A stretch of 64,000 bases of DNA from assembly GCF_024436035.1 (NCBI RefSeq), contig NZ_JANFNG010000009.1, forward strand, positions 124,001-188,000, in the 5' to 3' direction. The notes beneath the pieces are model-generated. The model worked only from the letters and a program-made list of their open reading frames with translations, was not told the DNA's origin and ran no database searches. Origin of the DNA: Streptomyces humicola. Lineage in GTDB: Bacteria > Actinomycetota > Actinomycetes > Streptomycetales > Streptomycetaceae. Positions 1,241-12,820 of this stretch are shown in pieces; position 1 is the first letter of the stretch, and each line of letters begins with the position of its first letter. Made by a program: the position numbers and the translations under genes.

Positions 1241-1419
1241 GCCCCGGCCACTGCTGCCGCACGCCCGGCCACGTCATCGAGGCGTTGCGTCGTTCACAGC
1301 GGGGCGCCGGTCAGCCCCTCCTCCTCGCCCGGACAACATGACCCGACACCGCCCCCACCGCCTAGCGGCCCGGGGGTTGCGGTAGGAGCATCGGAACCAC
1401 GAGTACAAAGGTGGTTGTG

Positions 1420-3849
1420 ATGGGCATACCGGCGACCCCGTTCAGCGAGAGTCCGGAGGACCCCTTCGCGCTGGGCCACGCCGCCTCCGCGGTGCTGGAC
1501 GAGCACGGGAGGGTGGTTGGCTGGAGCACACGGGCCCAGGAGCTGTTGGGCTACCCCGGCAAGGAGGTGATCGGCCGGCTGTGGCAGGAGTTCCTGATCG
1601 ACCCCGGCGACTTGCCGACCGCCCGGGCCGCGGTGGCGGACTGCCTGAGCGCAGGGGGCTGGTTCGGGGTGATGCCGCTGCGCCACCGCGACGGTCGGCG
1701 TGTGGAGATGGGATTCCGGTCCACCGCGGTCGTGCGGAACGAGATCGCCCGGGAGTGGTTTCTCGTCGGCGCGCCGGCCGAGGAGGTCATCGCATGGCAG
1801 CGGGACCGTGCGCTGCTGGACGGCCTGTACCACCGGTCGCCGATCGGTCTCGTCGTCCACAGCCCGGACCTGCACATCATCCGGGTCAACCGGGCGGTGG
1901 AGACGACCAGCGGGATGACGGCCAAGGAACACCGGGGCCGTCGCACCGGCGAGGTGCTGGTCAGCGAGGACGCCGGGCCGTCCGAGGACCGGGTACGCCG
2001 GGTGCTGGAGACCGGCAAGCCGATGGTCTTCACCGAGCAGTCCTGCCGGCTGCGCAGGGATCCCAGCCGGGAGCGGTGGGTGTCCGCCTCCGCGTTCCGG
2101 ATGGAGGACTCCGCCGGACGGATCCTGGGCGTGGCCGAGACCATCGAGGACGTCACCGACCGTCACCGGGCCCGGCGCAGGCTTGCGCTGCTCAACGAGG
2201 CCGGTGCCCGGATCGGCACCACACTGGATGTGCAGCGGACCGCCCGGGAGCTGGCCGAGGCGGCCGTGCCCGGACTGGCGGACTACGTCTCGGTGGACCT
2301 GCTGCAGCCGGTGACACGGGGTGACCAGCCGCGCCCCGATGCCGCCGGGCCGCTGCTCCGCGTGGCCTTCTCGCCCGGGGAACCGCGGGTCGCGTACCCG
2401 GAGGGCGAGGCGGTCCCCCTCGCACCGGAGTCACCGCAGGCCAGGTGCCTGGCCGCGGGTCGGCCGATGCTGGAAACGGTGGAGCTCATCCACCCCGAGT
2501 GGTACTCGCTGGACCGGCGGCGGGCCGAAGAGGCTCTCGGTCTCGGCGTGCACTCGATGATCGTGGTGCCGTTGACCGCGCGCGGCCTGGTACTGGGGGT
2601 GGTGAGCCTGTGGCGGTCGCGGCGCCCGGAGCCGTTCGAGGAGGACGATCTGACCGTGGCGCAGGAGTTCGCCGCGCGCGCCGCCGTCTGTATCGACAAC
2701 GCCCGCCGCTTCACCCAGCAGCAGCGCACCGCGCTCACCCTGCAGCGCAGCCTGCTGCCGTCCGCGGTGCCGGCCCAGCGGGCCGTCGAGGTGGCGCACC
2801 GCTATCTGCCGGCCAGCGCCGAACCGGGTATCGGCGGCGACTGGTTCGACGTCATCCCCCTCTCTGGCGCCCGTGTCGCGCTCGTCGTGGGGGACGTGGT
2901 CGGTCACGGCATCCACGCCGCCGCCACGATGGGCCGGCTGCGGACCGCGGTGCACACCCTGGCCAGCCTCGACCTGGAACCCGATGAGGTACTCGCGCGG
3001 CTGGACGACCTGGTGAACCTGCTGGCGGCGGAGCGCGAGGCGTACGGCGACCAGCCGCCGGGCGAGCAAGTAGTGGGCGCGACCTGCCTGTACGCGGTCT
3101 ACGACCCCGTCTCCCGGCACTGCTCCCTGGCACGCGCCGGCCACCCGCCGCCGGTCGTGGCTACCCCGGACGGCCAGGTGCGCCTTCCCGACCTGCCCGC
3201 GGGCCCGCCGCTCGGCCTCGGCGGGCTGCCGTTCGAGGCGTACGAGCTCGACCTGCCCGAGGGCAGCCTGCTCGCCCTCTACACCAACGGGCTCGTGGAG
3301 GAGCGCAACGGCGACATCGACGTCGCGCTCACGCGCCTGTGCGCGGAGCTCACCCGGTCCGCCGGCCCCCTGGAACGCACCTGCCAGGCGGTGGTGGACG
3401 CGCTGGTCCCCGAGCGACCCACCGACGACATCGCGCTGCTGATCGCCCGCACCCGGGTGCTTGTCCAGGAGAATGTCGCCTCCTGGGACCTTGCCCGGGA
3501 GCCGACCGCCGCCGCCCGGGCCCGGAATTTGACCGCGGCCAAGCTGACCGAGTGGGGGTTGGAGGAACTCGCCTTCACCACCGAGCTCATCGCGAGCGAG
3601 TTGGTCACCAACGCCTACCGGTACGCCGACGGCCCCATCACGCTGCGGCTGATCCGCACCGAACACCTCATCTGCGAGGTCTCCGACCCCAGCCACACCT
3701 CCCCGCATCTGCGCCGGGCCCGCATCACCGACGAAGGCGGCCGCGGCCTCTTCCTGGTGGCCCAACTCACCGAGCGATGGGGCACCCGTTACACCCAGGC
3801 CGGCAAGACCGTATGGACCGAACAACCGCTCGGCTCGCCCGGTGGCTGA
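1420..3849 (+). CDS. PAS-PAS-GAF-SpoIIE phosphatase-HATPase sensor
   Basis: This is a multi-domain sensor of about 809 residues. It has two PAS domains (about 25-120 and 150-255), a GAF domain (about 265-435), a SpoIIE/PP2C phosphatase domain (about 455-650, with GGDWFDVIPL, VVGDVVGHG, ARAGHPPPVV, TDDIALLIAR) and a C-terminal RsbW-like ATPase domain (ELVTNAYRYA, DEGGRGLFLV). Such proteins bind a small signal or light/redox cofactor in the sensory part and control a sigma-factor partner switch. I prefer ATG 1420, a few bases after AAAGG. GTG 1411 is also in frame. No signal peptide or membrane segment is visible. The C-terminal third is a paralogue of the gene entering at base 1. Confidence 0.92.
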   Translation: MGIPATPFSESPEDPFALGHAASAVLDEHGRVVGWSTRAQELLGYPGKEVIGRLWQEFLIDPGDLPTARAAVADCLSAGGWFGVMPLRHRDGRRVEMGFRSTAVVRNEIAREWFLVGAPAEEVIAWQRDRALLDGLYHRSPIGLVVHSPDLHIIRVNRAVETTSGMTAKEHRGRRTGEVLVSEDAGPSEDRVRRVLETGKPMVFTEQSCRLRRDPSRERWVSASAFRMEDSAGRILGVAETIEDVTDRHRARRRLALLNEAGARIGTTLDVQRTARELAEAAVPGLADYVSVDLLQPVTRGDQPRPDAAGPLLRVAFSPGEPRVAYPEGEAVPLAPESPQARCLAAGRPMLETVELIHPEWYSLDRRRAEEALGLGVHSMIVVPLTARGLVLGVVSLWRSRRPEPFEEDDLTVAQEFAARAAVCIDNARRFTQQQRTALTLQRSLLPSAVPAQRAVEVAHRYLPASAEPGIGGDWFDVIPLSGARVALVVGDVVGHGIHAAATMGRLRTAVHTLASLDLEPDEVLARLDDLVNLLAAEREAYGDQPPGEQVVGATCLYAVYDPVSRHCSLARAGHPPPVVATPDGQVRLPDLPAGPPLGLGGLPFEAYELDLPEGSLLALYTNGLVEERNGDIDVALTRLCAELTRSAGPLERTCQAVVDALVPERPTDDIALLIARTRVLVQENVASWDLAREPTAAARARNLTAAKLTEWGLEELAFTTELIASELVTNAYRYADGPITLRLIRTEHLICEVSDPSHTSPHLRRARITDEGGRGLFLVAQLTERWGTRYTQAGKTVWTEQPLGSPGG

Positions 3850-4300: not shown

Positions 4301-4757
4301 ACCCACCCGATCACAAGATCGTCGACAAGGCCGAGTTACGTGACGCCCAACCCGTCCCACCTGGGGAATTTCGTGACCGCCGACACCACCCCGTCGCCAT
4401 CCGCCCAGTGCGGAACCTTCCATCGTGGATTCGCAGGTGGGAGGCGCTGGACTGCGGATTCGGCCGAGCAGGTTGAGTCTTCGAGTTATCCGCCTCTCGT
4501 ATGTCTGAGAGCGGCCCCCACGGGGATTGCAAAATGCCGTGATGACGGTCCGGTGGGGGGAACGTCTCGGCCCGCCTGGGAGTGGCTCGCACGATCCGGG
4601 TGCCCGTTCACAATGGGACGCCGGAGAGCCCACAACTGAGCCGTGCGAATGAATTTGACGGATGATCAGCTTTTTTCGGCGGGTTACCGACCACATAGCC
4701 GTACCAGATGCCGCACGATTAGGCCCGCAGGAGCGTATTCAGAGGATGGTGAGCTTT
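4301..4757. other. intergenic region, no gene recognised
   Basis: This stretch runs between the transposase relic and the secreted repeat protein. It has open frames on both strands, but none with convincing codon bias, ribosome site or recognisable motif. The last 120 bases are less GC-rich and probably hold the promoter of the gene starting at 4758. Confidence 0.4.
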
Positions 4758-5318
4758 GTGAGAAGAGTCGCGCAGGCCGTGACCGTCGTCGGCACCTGTG
4801 GGCTGGTGATGTGTGGCGCCGGAACCGCGCACGCGCAACCCGCGCCGCAGCCGTCGCCACAATCCCTGCTCTCCTCACTGGTGGGTCTCGACGTGGGCAC
4901 GCTGGGCAGGATGGTCTCCGGCGTGCTGTGCAACAACCACCTCGTCGACTACAACTACAAATCGCCTGTGAGCAGTTCTCCGCACCCCTGCATCAACGGC
5001 CCGGCGCACAGCGACAACCGCCTGAACAGCGGGAATTTCTCCAACCAGGGAAATCCCTATCACACGGGTAACATCTCGGACGTGAACGGTGCGGCAGACA
5101 GTGGTAACAGCCAGAACAGCGGGAACTTCCTCAACCGGGGGAATCCGGCCAGCAGCGGAAACATTGCGAACACGAACGGTTCCACGAACAGTGGAGACTC
5201 CGTCATGGGCGCTCACGCCGACCCGCCCCCCGGCGGTGCCGCCCCCGCCGGGGGGTTGTCGCAGGGTGCGGCCGAACCGCCGCAGGCGGTGCGGCAGAAG
5301 GCGAGGGGCCACAACTGA
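4758..5318 (+). CDS. secreted Asn/Gly-rich repeat protein, family unknown
   Basis: The product has 186 residues. It starts with a Sec signal peptide (VRRVAQAVTVVG..., a hydrophobic core, then a likely cleavage after AHA). The mature part has a short region with two cysteines (VLCNN and HPCINGP), then two tandem 30-residue units rich in Asn, Gly and Ser (NSGNF, NxGNP, SGNI, NG, SGD). The tail is Pro/Gly/Ala-rich. I chose GTG 4758 because the resulting VRR start matches the VRK start of the convergent paralogue at 5403-5777 and a GGTGAG lies upstream. ATG 4746 is also possible. The CINGP and NTNGxTN motifs are shared with that neighbour. It resembles the Asn/Gly-rich low-complexity repeats of some actinobacterial surface proteins, but I cannot name a family. 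The function is unknown. Confidence 0.7.
   Translation: MRRVAQAVTVVGTCGLVMCGAGTAHAQPAPQPSPQSLLSSLVGLDVGTLGRMVSGVLCNNHLVDYNYKSPVSSSPHPCINGPAHSDNRLNSGNFSNQGNPYHTGNISDVNGAADSGNSQNSGNFLNRGNPASSGNIANTNGSTNSGDSVMGAHADPPPGGAAPAGGLSQGAAEPPQAVRQKARGHN
5022..5201 (+). repeat. two tandem 90-bp coding repeats
   Basis: Two adjacent in-frame 90-base units (5022-5111 and 5112-5201) encode related 30-residue blocks, each starting with (L/Q)NSGNF and ending with SG(N/D)S. The units are diverged at the DNA level, so this is an old internal duplication. Confidence 0.8.
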
Positions 5319-5345
5319 CCTGATCACGCTCGCCTTGGACGCCGT

Positions 5346-5382
5346 CCGTGATCGCCCGGAAGGACTGGCCGGGCGATCACGG
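5346..5382. terminator. bidirectional hairpin terminator
   Basis: A perfect 14-base-pair stem (CCGTGATCGCCCGG and its complement) with a 9-base loop lies between the convergent stops at 5318 and 5403. The position fits a shared transcription terminator. There is no T-run, which is common in high-GC actinomycetes. Confidence 0.75.
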
Positions 5383-5402
5383 CGGTGTATCTGACCTGCG
5401 TC

Positions 5403-5777
5403 CTAGCGGACGGTTTGAATGTCCTTGGGGCCCTGCGGACCGTGGGTCTCGATGTGGCCGTTGGTGTTGCCGTTGGTGTTGGTGGGGCTGCCGCTGTCGA
5501 CGGCGGCGCCGGACTTCCACCAGAGGTTCTGGGAACCCCAGAGGTTGCCGCTGTCCACCGGCCCGTTGATGCACGTTCGGGAGGACGACGAGCAGTGGAA
5601 GAAGATGCGGAAGTCGGCGATCGTGTCGCTGTCGATGGACTTCAACCCGTCCCAGCCGCCGGAGCCAAAGCCGCCGGTGGGTGCGCGCTGGGTCTGGGCG
5701 AACGACGGTCCGGCCGCGGCCAGCAAAAGGCCACACGCTCCGGTTATCAAGGCGCTCGCGCGCAGGGTCTTTCTCAC
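5403..5777 (-). CDS. small secreted protein with CINGP motif, paralogue of 4758-5318
   Basis: The product has 124 residues. Start GTG 5777 is preceded by GAGGAG at seven bases. A Sec signal peptide (VRKTLRASALITGACG..., cleavage probably after SFA) is followed by a mature domain with two close cysteines (FHCSSSSRTCINGP), tryptophans (GWDG, LWWKSG) and an Asn/Gly/Thr tail (NTNGNTNG). The CINGP and following DSGN/NTNG motifs match the convergent gene, so the two form a diverged pair. This copy lacks the 30-residue repeats. The family and function are not recognised. A surface or extracellular structural role is only a guess. Confidence 0.65.
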   Translation of the reverse strand: MRKTLRASALITGACGLLLAAAGPSFAQTQRAPTGGFGSGGWDGLKSIDSDTIADFRIFFHCSSSSRTCINGPVDSGNLWGSQNLWWKSGAAVDSGSPTNTNGNTNGHIETHGPQGPKDIQTVR

Positions 5778-5851
5778 TTTGACGCTCCTCGGGGTTGACG
5801 GGGCACGACACCCACGCCACCGCATGTAACCGGAACCGTCGAACAGATACC

Positions 5852-6379
5852 ATGACACGCACGCATTCACTCAATAGGGCCGGATATTTCGCCCTGATAA
5901 ACCAGAGCTCGAGTGGGCGTGTTCCACGTGCCGTAGTGAACCATGCTCTGCAGTGGCCGCGGCCGGGCCCGCAGATCGCGCTCGCGCACATCGGCGACGG
6001 CCCCGCGTTCTGGGCGCACGTTGCCGCTACCGACGGCTTCGCCTGCCAACCCAAAGACGCCGCCTCACGGGCCGTGGAGGTCGACCCACGCAGCACGCCA
6101 CTCCTCCTTTGGGACCGGGGATACCCGCCTCTGGGCCTGCACCGGTTCGTGACCGGCCAGCTCGCCGTCGACGAGGTGATGGAACAGCTCGCCGCCCGAA
6201 CCGATCCTGCCTGCCACGAGGCGTCCGTCTCAGGCGAGCAAACATGGCTGCGCGCCTACCGTTATGGCATCTTGCCGGAACTCCAGGTACTCCTCGCCTC
6301 TACGGGTACCCGCTCCAGCCCTTTGTCCCATGCGGGGGCACGCGGCGCGCAGCTGCAGCGCAGCGGCGGTAGTCGCTGA
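5852..6379 (+). CDS. hypothetical protein
   Basis: This is a possible protein of 175 residues. The part from about 5930 to 6300 has the codon bias of a real gene and reads as a soluble domain (for example GDGPAFWAHVAATDGF, LLLWDRGYPPLGLHRF, VDEVMEQLAARTDP). The N-terminal 25 residues lie in lower-GC sequence, and the last 25 look like untranslated DNA, so both ends are uncertain and the gene may be truncated. No family is recognised, and there is no signal peptide or membrane segment. It is divergent from the small secreted gene at 5403-5777, with only about 75 bases between the starts. Confidence 0.4.
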   Translation: MTRTHSLNRAGYFALINQSSSGRVPRAVVNHALQWPRPGPQIALAHIGDGPAFWAHVAATDGFACQPKDAASRAVEVDPRSTPLLLWDRGYPPLGLHRFVTGQLAVDEVMEQLAARTDPACHEASVSGEQTWLRAYRYGILPELQVLLASTGTRSSPLSHAGARGAQLQRSGGSR

Positions 6380-6437: not shown

Positions 6438-6742
6438 TCAACATGTCCCTCGTCCAATGGAGGACAGCACCGCGAGCTGGAGTTGCGATAGCTGCGGACG
6501 AGCCGGCGTGGACGTGGTGCGCAACATGTACGGCAAGCGGCTCACAGCATCGACAAGGGCACTGACTTCGCCACCGCCGCCGTGCTGCCACACCGTGGCG
6601 GACAGCTCGCTCAGGCATGCCTCGCAGAGGTACAGCGGGGCGTGCACGACGATGATCTGCACGGAGCCGACCCACATCACGGGCAATCCGGTCGGCGGCA
6701 GTACAGCCAGCAGCGGCCGGTCGTCCACGCGGGCGCGGTCAT
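6438..6742 (-). pseudogene. small zinc-ribbon-like protein, frameshifted
   Basis: An ATG at 6742 overlaps the TGA of the upstream recombinase gene (ATGA), a typical coupled start. Its frame reads CWLYCRR and then stops at about 6680. One frame over, the sequence continues smoothly with TGLPVMWVGSVQ, a second pair LCEACL and on to a stop at 6438. A single missing base near 6690-6700 would join the two into a protein of about 100 residues with two cysteine pairs, as in small zinc ribbons. Either the gene is broken or the base is a sequencing error. If the downstream frame is used alone, GTG 6728 could start it but lacks a ribosome site. Confidence 0.55.
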
Positions 6743-7146
6743 GCCGTGATCGGGGCCGTGGTGAGGCGGGCGCGTTGTACCCAGGTGCCGTCCGGGCGGC
6801 GCTGCTCGCCGCAGCAGGTTTCGACCCACGCACCGAGGTGCAGCACGCGGCGTGTCAGCAGCCCGCGCGCCTCCTGGTCGCGAGAGAGCCGGTCCCAGTC
6901 GTAGGCGAGGCACACCCGCGGAGTGTCGACCCCGGCCACGCGGATGGTGTTGAGCATCGCCTCGAACGCGGGCCGCCTGTCGTTGGTGAGGGCGTCGTCG
7001 CCCTCGTCGACAAACCATCCACCGATCATCCAGCCCTGCGCCTCCGCATACTGCGCACAGACCTGTAGCCGCAGGCGCAGTACGACCGTGTTGGCCGTGG
7101 CATGTCTGTCGTACACGTAGGCGAGGGCGGGCTGTTCGGCGGTCAT
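6739..7146 (-). CDS. small recombinase-like protein (serine resolvase N-terminal fold)
   Basis: The protein has 135 residues starting at ATG 7146, behind a run of G about eight bases upstream. The segments AYVYDRHATAN, LRLQVCAQYAEAQGW and CLAYDWDRLSRDQEA match the order of a serine-recombinase catalytic domain (start strand, helix, then the LxRLSR-like segment). The usual catalytic serine of the YxRxS motif is replaced by YDRHA, and there is no C-terminal DNA-binding domain. It is therefore probably not an active recombinase. It sits between an XRE regulator upstream and a small cysteine-rich ORF downstream, all on the minus strand. A regulatory or accessory role in this module is possible but not shown. 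Confidence 0.65.
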   Translation of the reverse strand: MTAEQPALAYVYDRHATANTVVLRLRLQVCAQYAEAQGWMIGGWFVDEGDDALTNDRRPAFEAMLNTIRVAGVDTPRVCLAYDWDRLSRDQEARGLLTRRVLHLGAWVETCCGEQRRPDGTWVQRARLTTAPITA

Positions 7147-7248
7147 GAGATCGTCCCCCCGGCATCGGCGGCTGGTTCGATCTCGACCGTAGGAGCGCCA
7201 CATCCGAAGAAGGGGCACAGTTTGTGCACCTTGCTCACGCTGCGATCA

Positions 7249-8720: not shown

Positions 8721-9311
8721 ATGCAGATGCAGCCGCAACCTGAACCACAGGTGCCACGCCCGGAAAGCCCCCAGGCGCGGGCCGATCGCAACCTGGTGGA
8801 GCTCCTGCAGGAGCTGCGTGTAGTCCAGGCCGGCGTACAGATCGTCTTCGCTTTCCTGCTCGGCGTAGCCTTCACTAATCGCTTCGCGCAGCTCAACGCG
8901 TTCCAGCGCGACACCTACGTGGTCACGCTGCTGATGACGGATGTCGCCTCTGCCGTCCTTGCCACACCGGTTGCTTTGCACCGTGTCCTGTTCCACCGCG
9001 GCCTGAAGCCGCGCATCGTGGCCCTGTCCACACGGCTCGCCCAGACCGGCCTGGTCTTCCTGGCGCTAGCGCTCAACGGCGCGGTCTTGCTGCTGATGGA
9101 CGTCGTCCTGGGCCTCGTTGCCGCCGTTGCCACCACCGCCGTCACTGTTGCGCATACCCGCGCCCCGGACGCCGCTGCCGCCTTCGTCGCCCGGCGTGTC
9201 AAGTACCTCCCGGATCGGGGGGCCGGCTCTCCGGGGTATAGACGTGCTCCATCCCCTACTCGTGCCGTTCGCTTCTGCCAGAGCCTCGGGGGAAGCCATT
9301 ACCGTGGATGA
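8721..9311 (+). CDS. DUF6328 family four-helix membrane protein
   Basis: The product has up to 196 residues. A conserved cytosolic start (RNLVELLQELRVVQAGVQIVFAF) leads into four hydrophobic segments (about 38-55, 70-88, 108-122, 126-144). This matches the actinobacterial DUF6328 family. The final 35 residues are polar, overlap the convergent phosphatase gene by 13 bases and may not be original, so the C-terminus could be damaged. The ribosome site is weak. The function is unknown. Confidence 0.75.
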   Translation: MQMQPQPEPQVPRPESPQARADRNLVELLQELRVVQAGVQIVFAFLLGVAFTNRFAQLNAFQRDTYVVTLLMTDVASAVLATPVALHRVLFHRGLKPRIVALSTRLAQTGLVFLALALNGAVLLLMDVVLGLVAAVATTAVTVAHTRAPDAAAAFVARRVKYLPDRGAGSPGYRRAPSPTRAVRFCQSLGGSHYRG

Positions 9312-10471
9312 TCTTTGCGTGGTGGTGGCCCGGGTGGGTGGGGGCGGGGGGGGGCGGGGGGGCGGTGGATCGCGATGAGGGCGGCGTCGTCGTCGAGGCG
9401 TCCGCCGGCGTGGGCGAGGAGATCGCGCCGGATGTGGTGGAGGAGTATCTCGGGGCTGCTGTCGGCCCACTGGGCGGCCCGTACCGCGAACGGGTAGAAG
9501 CCGCCGCTCGCGTCGCGGGCTTCGATGACGCCGTCGGTGTAGAGCAAGAGGGTGTCTCCGGGTTCGAAGGAGAACACATCGACGGTATAGTCCGTCGGTC
9601 CGATCCCGCCGAGCCCCAGCGGGGGCGCGGGGTGCACGCTCGGGACGGTGACGGCGTTGCCGGGGCTGAGCAGCAGGGGAGGGGGATGGCCGCAGCTGGT
9701 CAGCCGGGTGATGTGGCCTTCGTCGGGGATCTCCAGCAGCAGGGCGGTGACGAAGCGTTCCCCGGCCTCTTCGTCCGGCTCGGGGAACTCGGCCTGGTAG
9801 CGGTCGATGCTGCCTTCCAGGGCAGTGGCCAGCGCGGGCAGGGTGGCGTGCTGGTGGGCGGCCTCGCGGAAGGCGCCCAGCAGGAGGGCGGCCTCTCCGA
9901 TGGCGGCCAGACCCTTGCCCCGCACGTCGCCGATCAGCACGAGGGCTCCGTCCTCGGTGCGGGTGGCCGCGTACAGGTCGCCGCCGATCTGGGCCTCGTC
10001 CTCTGCGGCGAGGTACAGGCAGGCGGTGCGCAGCGGGCCGATCCGGTTCGGGAGCGGCCACAGCAGGACGTGCTGCGCGGCCTCGGCGACTGATCGCACC
10101 TGGGCGAGCTCCCGTCTGCGCCGCTCGCGTACCACGCAGAAGAACACGATCAGGCACGAGAGCACTGCCAGGGCGAGGATCTGATTCATCACGTTTCGGG
10201 AGGACAGTGCGCCGAAGTGCCAGCCGATGTACGCCTGGGCCGCAACTGCCAGGACCCCGACCAGCCCGGTCAGCCGGGGACCGGCGAACGAGGCGGTGAT
10301 CGCGGGCGCGATGACCAGCAGCGGACTCAGGTGGACATCGACCGGGACCAAGATGTCCACGATCGTGATCACCACGATGAGCACAACAGGGATCGCCAGC
10401 AGCCCGTGGGCCGACTGCCATGGCTGCCGCCACCCGGCAAGACGCTGCCCGGGACCCATGTCCTCCACCAT
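9299..10471 (-). CDS. membrane-anchored SpoIIE-type serine phosphatase
   Basis: The protein has about 390 residues. The N-terminal third has several hydrophobic segments (LLAIPVVLIVVITIVDILV, LLVIAPAITASFAG, LTGLVGVLAVAAQAYIG, ILALAVLSCLIVFFCVV). A PP2C/SpoIIE domain follows, with GGDLYAATRTEDG, LIGDVRGKGL, TSCGHPPPLLL, LLLYTDGVIEARD and DDDAALIAI. It probably dephosphorylates an anti-anti-sigma factor from the membrane. ATG 10471 is used. ATG 10459, just behind GGTGGAGG, is an alternative. The 3' end runs through a G-rich tract encoding a Pro-rich tail. No anti-sigma partner is adjacent. Confidence 0.88.
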   Translation of the reverse strand: MVEDMGPGQRLAGWRQPWQSAHGLLAIPVVLIVVITIVDILVPVDVHLSPLLVIAPAITASFAGPRLTGLVGVLAVAAQAYIGWHFGALSSRNVMNQILALAVLSCLIVFFCVVRERRRRELAQVRSVAEAAQHVLLWPLPNRIGPLRTACLYLAAEDEAQIGGDLYAATRTEDGALVLIGDVRGKGLAAIGEAALLLGAFREAAHQHATLPALATALEGSIDRYQAEFPEPDEEAGERFVTALLLEIPDEGHITRLTSCGHPPPLLLSPGNAVTVPSVHPAPPLGLGGIGPTDYTVDVFSFEPGDTLLLYTDGVIEARDASGGFYPFAVRAAQWADSSPEILLHHIRRDLLAHAGGRLDDDAALIAIHRPPAPPRPHPPGPPPRKDHPR

Positions 10472-10849
10472 GCGCCATTCGAGCGCGACTGGCGAGCGGC
10501 AGCCACATCCGGATGGTCTGCCCCGGGATACCAGGGCGTCGGCTCGTTGCCGCAGCCCGCCGGTCGCAAGCCCTGGCGTCATGCCCGATTAAGCTACCCG
10601 GCGGTCACCTTCCCCCCGGGGACACAGCTGAGATTCCAGGGCCAACTCCGGTGCGAGGACTGACGCGGAAGCAGGAACCGCCAACTAAACGCTCAGCCCG
10701 CTCTACCTAGTGAAGCGCTCACGACAACTTACGTGTGGCCGGGCACGCGGTGCCGGGTACGGCGCCCAGACGCCATTTGTCGAGCGAAGTCACATGGTGC
10801 CTAGGGAGCCGACCACCGGTGGCGGTGGGTGGCTCCCGTGTGGATGGGG

Positions 10850-11873
10850 TCAGCGTGCGCGTGGTCGTGCAGTGCCCGGGGTCGGCGGTGGCACGGTGCG
10901 GGTGGTCGCTGCTGTGGCTGGCGTCGTCGGGGCCAGTCGCCGGTTGGGTGGTGGCTTCGGCAGGTCGACCGAGGCGGGCAGGTTTCCGAGTCGGCGCAAT
11001 CGCCAGACCAGGACGTCGCTGATGTGGTTGGCGGTGCCCAGCTCCCTGATCTCCCCTGTCTGTTTAAGGAGGGCGGCGGGGTTGTGTCCGGCGCGTACGG
11101 CCTCGTCGAGCGAGGCCGCCAGCGCATCCCCGCCGCGGCCGAGGGCGGGTCCCCCGGAGACGATCTCGCGGGCGGCGCGGCGCAGGGCTCGCAGTTCGGC
11201 CTGTTCGGTGCGGATGTGCGAGCGGGTGGCACGCTCGAAGAACCGGGCGCCTTGTCGTAGCTCGGCTTTCGTGTCGGCGGATGAGGTCTGGACAAGGGCA
11301 TCCAGCACCTCGCCGACTCCGATCAGCTGGGCGGCCGCTGCCGCATCGTCGTCGGATTCAAGCGTGAGGTTCGCGTGGTCGGTGGCGTCGGCGGCGTCCC
11401 GGCGGGCTCGGGCCGCACGCTGGTTGCGCAGGGGAATTACCGCTTCACCGGTCTCGACATCCGGGGTGGCGATGAGGCTCCTTCTCGATCTTGCGGCATT
11501 CGGCCTGAGCGCGGATGCCGTCCTTGCGGTGGCGAGGCCGGGTGCGGTCCGCGCGTACCAGGGTGGCGACGATGTGGATGTGGTCTGGGGCGTGGCGCAC
11601 CGCGATCCACCGGCATGCCCTCTCGTCGCCTTCGGGGGCGACGCCGCTGGCGTACAGGATGCGCCGGGCGACCTGGGCCCACTCGTCGTCGGACAGGATG
11701 CGGTCGCCGGGGGCCGTGCGCACCGGGCAGTGCCACACGTGCTTGGCCGGGACCTTGTCGCCGAGGGCCTTGACCCACAGGTCCAGCTCGTCGGCGAGGT
11801 CCTGCCCGGTGACCTGCGGGTCGCGGCCGGGGTCGGGGGTGAAGAAGGGCGACCACGTGCGGGCGCGGGCGAC
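10850..11873 (-). pseudogene. relaxase/mobilisation protein remnant
   Basis: On the minus strand from about 11873, one frame encodes the central part of a MobA/TraI-like relaxase, including KHVWHCPVRT, DDEWAQVARRILYASG and the metal-binding HIHIVATL motif. At about 11470 the homology jumps to another frame, which reads through to 10850 with a helical C-terminal part (DDDAAAAAQLIGVGEVLDAL, ERATRSHIRTEQAELRALRR). The N-terminus with the catalytic tyrosine is missing, and the segment after the HxH motif is shortened. The gene is therefore truncated, frameshifted and internally deleted. It is a relic of an integrative or conjugative element. No other transfer gene, integrase or attachment site was seen. 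Confidence 0.7.
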
Positions 11874-11956
11874 AGTGGCGCGGGTGACCGGAGACGCGGG
11901 AGCGCATTGGCTTGCACGCGCCCCTACTCCACGCGTGTGCGCCGTTGTGCGCCAGT

Positions 11957-12820
11957 ATGGACCCCGTGACCACGACCTACCGGACTCCCCGGTCCCCGGA
12001 GCCCCAGGCCAGTCCCCCCAAACCACGGCTCATCGCCACCGACCTCGACGGCACCCTGCTACGCAACGACAAGACCGTCTCCGCCCGCACCATCGCCGCC
12101 CTCACCGCCGCTGAGGACGCGGGCATCGAGGTCTTCTTCGTCACCGGCCGCCCGGCCCGCTGGATGGACGTCGTCGCCGCCCATACCGCGCGCCACGGCG
12201 TCGCCATCTGCGCCAACGGTGCGGCCGTCTACGACCTGCACCGCGACCTCCTGCTGGCCGCTTACCCGCTGGCCGTACGCGACGCCCTCAGCGTCGTGGC
12301 CGAGCTGCGCGCCGCGGCCCCCGGCACGGCCTTCGCGGTCGAGCGGACGCGCGGCTTCCACTACGAGCCCGGGTACACGGCGTTCTTCGCCGAACCCGAC
12401 TCGGTGAGCGCCCCCATAGAGGAACTGCTGGCGTGGGCCACGGACCAGCCGGTGCTCAAGCTCCTCGCCAAGCACCCGACCGCCGACCCCGACGCATTCC
12501 TCGCCACAGCCCGCCGTGCTGCGGGCGGCCACGCCGAGTTCACCCGGTCCAGTCCCTCCGCGCTGCTGGAGATCAGCGGCGCGGGTGTCAGCAAGGCCAC
12601 GACCCTGGCCCGCTGTTGCGCCGAGCGCGGGATCTCCGCCGACGAGGTCGTCGCCTTCGGCGACATGCCGAACGATCTGGCGATGCTGTCGTGGGCCGGC
12701 ACGTCGTACGCCGTCGCCAACGCCCATCCCGACGTGCTCGCCGCCACGACGCATCGCACCGCCGCCAACGACGACGACGGCGTCGCGCTCGCCATCGAAC
12801 GCGTCATCGCCGGCGGATGA
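11957..12820 (+). CDS. Cof-type HAD-family sugar-phosphatase-like hydrolase
   Basis: The protein has 287 residues. HAD motif I is IATDLDGTLLR near residue 26, motif II lies in FFVTGRP, motif III is the conserved lysine in GVSKATTL, and motif IV is FGDMPNDLAML. The large alpha/beta cap between motifs II and III is the Cof/type IIB class, whose members hydrolyse sugar phosphates or other phosphorylated metabolites. ATG 11957 is preferred. GTG 11966 is possible. It is a complete single-gene unit among pseudogenes. The substrate cannot be read from the sequence. Confidence 0.88.
   Translation: MDPVTTTYRTPRSPEPQASPPKPRLIATDLDGTLLRNDKTVSARTIAALTAAEDAGIEVFFVTGRPARWMDVVAAHTARHGVAICANGAAVYDLHRDLLLAAYPLAVRDALSVVAELRAAAPGTAFAVERTRGFHYEPGYTAFFAEPDSVSAPIEELLAWATDQPVLKLLAKHPTADPDAFLATARRAAGGHAEFTRSSPSALLEISGAGVSKATTLARCCAERGISADEVVAFGDMPNDLAMLSWAGTSYAVANAHPDVLAATTHRTAANDDDGVALAIERVIAGG

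Follow-up and report, generated by a model that had tools for sequence, protein, structure and literature searches.

Paired small CINGP proteins of streptomycetes and related actinomycetes and a putative BldM–WhiI-type element upstream of their genes

Two adjoining genes in the window (the whole stretch of 64,000 nucleotides that was analysed) encode the small proteins CINGP-A and CINGP-B, referred to below as A and B. Judged from their sequences and gene context, they represent a real paired protein family, undescribed in the sources searched, with a plausible role in sporulation. Knowledge of how streptomycete spores are covered and mature comes mainly from a small number of model species. 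What is new here is an element resembling the binding site of the BldM–WhiI heterodimer, which is located before both the A and the B genes. If this reading of the promoters is true, the pair would provide concrete structural targets for BldM–WhiI, as well as a compact two-gene module for studying the assembly of paired repeat proteins on the cell surface.

The A and B proteins and their genes

The pair is located on contig C78 of the 7.07 Mb host genome (Table 1). Both proteins begin with V-R-[RK], and by eye the short basic start is followed by a hydrophobic signal-like stretch with an A-x-A-like end near residue 26. A and B thus look like exported-type proteins. The sequence-only reading had called them Sec-exported; the exported-type N-termini stand as a prediction, and the Sec route is probable. 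After removal of the signal region by a fixed cut (residue 27 in A, residue 29 in B), each of the 27 A and 23 B proteins contains exactly two cysteines, and both are invariant in the alignments. The mature parts are hydrophilic, with a mean GRAVY of −0.44 for A and −0.77 for B. In the A tract asparagine is periodic, with repeats at lags of 3, 6, 9 and 12 (frequency among shared permutations at most 0.004), which corresponds to NxxNSG hexads. The same periodicity is weaker in the B tract (0.01 to 0.14 at these lags). The A protein of the window has a second tract, about 30 residues (five hexads) in length, which is absent from the other 26 aligned A proteins and is also found in the second copy of the gene on contig C11. 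Its C-terminus is rich in Pro, Ala and Gly and is longer than in the relatives. The features named in the sequence-only reading, a common start pattern, CINGP with an upstream cysteine and Asn/Gly-rich tails in both proteins, were confirmed with exact coordinates, and the repeat-bearing partner that it had suggested is A. The AlphaFold models of A and B contain no confident fold; since only 27 and 23 close sequences stand behind them, their low mean pLDDT values (48.9 and 44.7, respectively) say nothing about disorder.

Table 1. Coordinates of the gene pair, its associated elements and its further copies in the host genome
Feature	Position	Strand	Description
CINGP-A	4758–5318	+	186 aa; GTG 4758, TGA 5316–5318; Cys58, Cys78; CINGP at residues 78–82; two Asn/Ser/Gly tracts
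CINGP-B	5403–5777	−	124 aa; GTG 5777, TAG 5403–5405; Cys62, Cys69; CINGP at residues 69–73; one Asn/Ser/Gly tract
Shared hairpin	5346–5382		arms 5346–5359 and 5369–5382; 14/14 pairs; 9-nt loop
Putative BldM–WhiI-type site before A	4637–4652	+	TGAGCCGTGCGAATGA; 10/12; −121 from the start codon
Weak putative counterpart before B	5867–5882	−	8/12; −105
Second conserved element before A	4705–4726	+	CAACcGCAGCACGATACGTCTG; at about −53 in relatives; partly kept in the window
Duplicated cassette	4613–5999		1.4 kb; the A and B genes with their upstream regions and the hairpin; recurs on contig C11 with 94.7% identity
C20 locus (L003), A-like / B-like	1041–1325 / 1474–1752	− / +	divergent
C22 locus (L008)	1468–2046 / 586–972	+ / −	divergent

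The stop codons of the convergent genes are separated by 84 bp. The folding energy of this spacer is −46 kcal/mol (z = −5.07), and none of 200 shuffled sequences was equally stable. The sequence-only reading had described a perfect bidirectional hairpin terminator shared by both genes. The perfect 14-bp hairpin was found; as a marked U-tract is absent from its region, the function of a bidirectional terminator common to A and B is one that we infer and consider probable. A strong hairpin between the stop codons was detected by script in 18 of 21 convergent pairs, including that of the window. At the loci L044 and L058 the stop codons are only 10 and 27 bp apart, and the inverted repeat of L049, visible by eye, has a loop longer than the script allowed.

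The sequences flanking the C11 copy of the cassette differ from those of the window on both sides, and the two A genes differ by 11 synonymous and 10 non-synonymous codons. Two further, diverged loci are present on contigs C20 and C22 of the host genome. They encode small exported proteins with the signal peptide of the family and NSGN/NSFNF tracts.

When the profiles of the 27 A and 23 B proteins were compared over their full length, they matched with a probability of 99.7% over 112 columns. The profiles of the mature parts only matched with a probability of 99.2% over 81 columns, and the rodlin, chaplin and reversed controls in this comparison gave about 2% or less. These values place the resemblance beyond chance; by profile comparison, A and B are sister proteins of common descent.

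Distribution and pairing

The A profile identified 26 loci in named genomes, which belong to the genera Streptomyces, Actinacidiphila, Streptacidiphilus and Peterkaempfera and to the three Streptosporangiaceae Acrocarpospora, Microtetraspora and Herbidospora. Many of them belong to related Streptomyces and do not count as independent cases. A B gene adjoins the A gene in 22 loci, in convergent orientation in 20 and in tandem, with B after A, in two (L062 and L063, from Peterkaempfera and Streptacidiphilus). The convergent arrangement noted in the sequence-only reading therefore holds for the window and for most loci and is not universal. At the three loci L060, L061 and L064 a second A-like gene lies on the same strand. 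L059 is the only Streptomyces locus among the 26 that lacks B, and A stands there alone. A small ORF, transposase-like by eye, adjoins it just upstream (5526–5894, + strand of that locus) and suggests that B was lost by rearrangement.

In a sample of 297 Streptomycetaceae genomes, A was found in ten, and the same ten have B adjoining, eight as convergent and two as tandem pairs (G011 and G033). Two of the ten have an additional A-like gene outside the pair: that of G228 has no partner among the genes listed, and that of G021 precedes a further member of the family encoded on the same strand. Across the class, five of 394 sampled genomes contain A, and they represent two families only. The family sample includes A and B proteins identical to the named records of Streptomyces abikoensis and Actinacidiphila soli; since some genomes are of the same species in both, the surveys of 26 loci and 297 genomes are not independent. 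S. coelicolor, S. venezuelae and S. griseus were absent among the named matches of the pattern-based scan, which can miss distant relatives.

A survey of genomes for the pairing had been set beforehand as a check, and its outcome rules out a pairing by accident. Tails of low complexity that are rich in Asn and Gly can resemble one another fortuitously; however, the fact that 22 of the 26 loci have retained the pair, in either of two orientations, together with the mature-profile match far above the reversed and unrelated controls, refutes an accidental origin of resemblance and pairing, to which we assign practically no probability. The one-to-one pairing has been kept despite changes in orientation, which argues that the products work together.

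The sequence-only reading knew of no described family for the proteins, and no characterised family was found. Searches of Pfam and NCBIfam gave no convincing match, only scattered sub-threshold hits, the best with an E value of 0.0043 (DUF1302, in two of ten B proteins). Profile searches of the PDB with A and B returned no match at E values up to 1. No description of the family was found in the open-licence literature searched, and the listed matches of the motif search were unrelated by title and abstract. These searches also bear on the idea of a secreted antagonism system, for example a two-peptide bacteriocin or a toxin with its partner, for which a small, secreted, paralogous pair with a patchy distribution and a convergent cassette duplicated in the genome would be suitable. 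No toxin-type match was obtained in Pfam or NCBIfam, no immunity gene was recognised among the recurrent neighbours examined, and one A relative matched no plasmid or phage sequence at an E value of 1e-5. Moreover, the two proteins resemble each other and each is of the exported type, unlike a toxin and its immunity protein. An antagonistic function is thus improbable.

Upstream elements and neighbouring genes

The regions upstream of the A and B genes have many words in common beyond shuffled controls. An unsupervised motif search in 42 upstream regions (21 of A, 21 of B) yielded the common element GGGCC..C..G.TGAAT; in A it is situated around −122, in B usually close to −135. The published consensus sequences were consulted after this search. 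The element resembles TGnnCCGnnCGGGTGA, given in PMC4125116 as the site of the BldM–WhiI heterodimer (Group II), and mostly lies 105–135 bp upstream. Group II genes are described in the same source as needed for late stages of development.

The resemblance was scored over 12 fixed positions, with the best match taken within 200 bp upstream. The mean best match is 9.90 of 12 for A, with at least 10 in 17 of 21 regions, and 9.62 for B, with at least 10 in 13 of 21. Permuted consensuses average about 8.3 and sequence shuffles about 8.4, and none of 600 permutations attained the observed value for either gene. After thinning to four divergent representatives each, the value was attained by none of 3000 permutations for A and by two of 3000 for B. 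The palindrome of the BldM homodimer (Group I) is not enriched (observed value attained by 172 of 600 permutations for A and 136 of 600 for B). The best matches of A lie on the coding strand at −120 to −127 in 19 of 21 regions, L052 and L056 being the exceptions. A match of at least 10 was also obtained for 33 of 231 other genes of these loci. In 17 of the 33 it lies on the coding strand, in six of these also at the corresponding distance. Four genes reach 11, three of them Rpf-like neighbours. At the tandem loci L062 and L063, which were outside the permutation tests, B has a match of 10 at −118 and −121, respectively, and A one of 9.

The site before the C11 copy of B scores 11 at −115. The C20 and C22 paralogues score 8–9 and L059 scores 9, none of these being a notable site. 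Among the Streptosporangiaceae, L060 and L064 likewise lack a notable site (scores of 8 and 7, respectively), and L061 scores 10. In a passage of PMC4255298, WhiI is described as absent from Streptosporangium, and the low scores in this family, known from three loci only, fit that absence. The host genome contains seven exact matches to the Group II consensus (the backward pattern has one), and none of the adjoining genes was identified by eye as a sporulation gene; smeA-sffA, sought as a positive control, was not identified. Simple patterns for sigma-BldN, sigma-WhiG and MtrA sites had no full-site match upstream.

The second conserved element before A, at about −53, is a possible core promoter. 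In most of the loci L039–L058, GCAGCACGATACGTCTG is conserved at about −53 before A and CCGGTAGCAAGAC before B. At −133 before the A gene of L063 there is a perfect palindrome, TGGGCCGATCGGCCCA, with two half-sites of the WhiI type, and L062 has a near copy at −114; a WhiI homodimer might bind to this palindrome.

A function unrelated to sporulation, in which A and B act as secreted adhesion or matrix proteins of the vegetative mycelium, would suit hydrophilic, repeat-rich, exported proteins, and an accessory niche trait would agree with the sporadic distribution (ten of 297 genomes) and with the presence of several copies. The presence of a Group II-type site at both promoters speaks against this function, which we regard as quite unlikely.

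The genes flanking the pair vary between loci. The commonest neighbour, found in nine of the 26 named loci, encodes an Rpf-like secreted transglycosylase and lies upstream of B on the strand of B; at L047 it is about 4 kb from the pair. The protein at L039 contains PF06737 (E = 3.5e-31) and LysM, and the other Rpf-like proteins were grouped with it by BLAST. When 600 bp upstream of these genes were searched, without a separate control, Group II-like sites with scores of 10 or 11 (out of 12) turned up before six of the nine, in five at a similar distance. The next commonest neighbours are a TAP-like hydrolase (six loci) and three other groups (five loci each).

Rpf enzymes are described as active in spore germination, and NepA (SCO4002; PMC6414726) as an insoluble structural protein of the spore wall that maintains dormancy (PMC5693915 for both). 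A and B might likewise be located in the spore wall and modulate dormancy or germination by controlling wall hydrolysis, for example by Rpf-type enzymes. The Rpf-like genes on the strand of B, six of them with a BldM–WhiI-like site, would agree with such a NepA-like role. They were, however, found in nine of the 26 loci, at one of these about 4 kb away, and none was seen around the window copy, so that we consider this role unlikely.

Elsewhere in the window, 6742–7215 (−) encodes a resolvase N-terminal domain (PF00239) and 11448–12026 (−) a relaxase domain of the MobA/VirD2 type (PF03432), which are probably remnants of an integrated mobile element. Genes for SpoIIE-type phosphatases flank the pair at a distance, at 1411–3846 (+) and 9302–10582 (−); the product of the former also contains PAS, GAF and HATPase domains.

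Proposed function and comparison with known systems

The protein sequences, the sporulation-type promoter element and the Rpf-like neighbour in some species suggest that A and B may be structural or cell-wall-associated, as the sequence-only reading had proposed. The putative control sites point to production during spore formation, and A and B are therefore probably components of the surface of spores or aerial hyphae. We propose that they form an exported two-subunit surface or wall system of sporulating actinomycetes which is controlled by BldM–WhiI and co-assembles on the spore or aerial hypha; to this proposal as a whole we give about an even chance. The BldM–WhiI heterodimer would switch on both genes late in development, and the products would be exported, probably by Sec. 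Each protein may form a single disulfide next to CINGP, giving a small cysteine loop. A layer covering the spore or aerial hypha would then arise from repetitive packing of the hydrophilic Asn/Ser/Gly hexad tracts, in which A probably associates with B. We infer the control, timing, disulfide, localisation and co-assembly in this scheme from the sequences. A more far-reaching version, which we put forward tentatively as a possibility, is that the pair represents a new class of actinomycete exoskeleton apart from chaplins and rodlins. It would be a two-subunit hydrophilic fibre or lattice of late sporulation under BldM–WhiI, built from Asn/Ser/Gly hexads with a disulfide-loop anchor and encoded by a self-contained cassette of convergent genes, with gain, loss and duplication affecting the whole cassette at once.

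The proposed system is similar to the BldM–WhiI Group II regulon, which includes smeA-sffA and whiE, in having the TGnnCCGnnCGGGTGA-like element before A and B. As a set, the A and B genes carry the Group II motif in their promoters with degenerate matches, typically of 9–11 of 12 positions; the site before the B gene of the window is weak, and the A and B genes are candidate members of the regulon. The likeness to NepA, compared by description only, lies in the proposed location and stage.

Chaplins (PF03777) are likewise exported and have two cysteines, with a C[VI]NG-like end of the cysteine loop; at L061 the loop CGN-x15-CVNG even has chaplin spacing. With an E limit of 0.5, a joint A/B profile matched 242 of the 297 genomes, and 18 of 20 weak-match loci inspected were chaplins by eye. 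In contrast to the hydrophobic, amphipathic mature peptides of chaplins, the mature parts of A and B are hydrophilic and lack the chaplin core. No family member searched matched PF03777 at E limits of 1 or 10. Kinship with the chaplins was rejected, the mature-only comparison giving 0.3–0.9%, no better than the reversed controls.

The rodlins RdlA and RdlB are homologous small exported proteins with a signal peptide of 28 residues and a mature part of near 105 residues, and both are described as indispensable for one surface layer (PMC5314377). Rodlins are under the control of sigma-BldN, at least in S. venezuelae (PMC4255298). Kinship of A and B with a set of six rodlin-like proteins, found with a rodlin-type query, was rejected: the profile probabilities were 0.6% and 3.2%, and 0.4% and 1.0% for the mature parts. 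The distributions differ as well. The rodlin-type query matches 226 of 297 family genomes (E 0.001; the weakest matches may not all be rodlins), whereas A occurs in ten. Six of these ten, G000 (weakly), G006, G151, G153, G216 and G228, are among the rodlin-query matches; G011, G021 and G033 are listed with no such match, and G232 is absent among the matches listed. The likeness lies in the organisation, since both are systems of two small exported paralogues in sporulating streptomycetes. By this analogy, the best reading is that the A/B pair would work most like RdlA/RdlB, to which it is unrelated by sequence.
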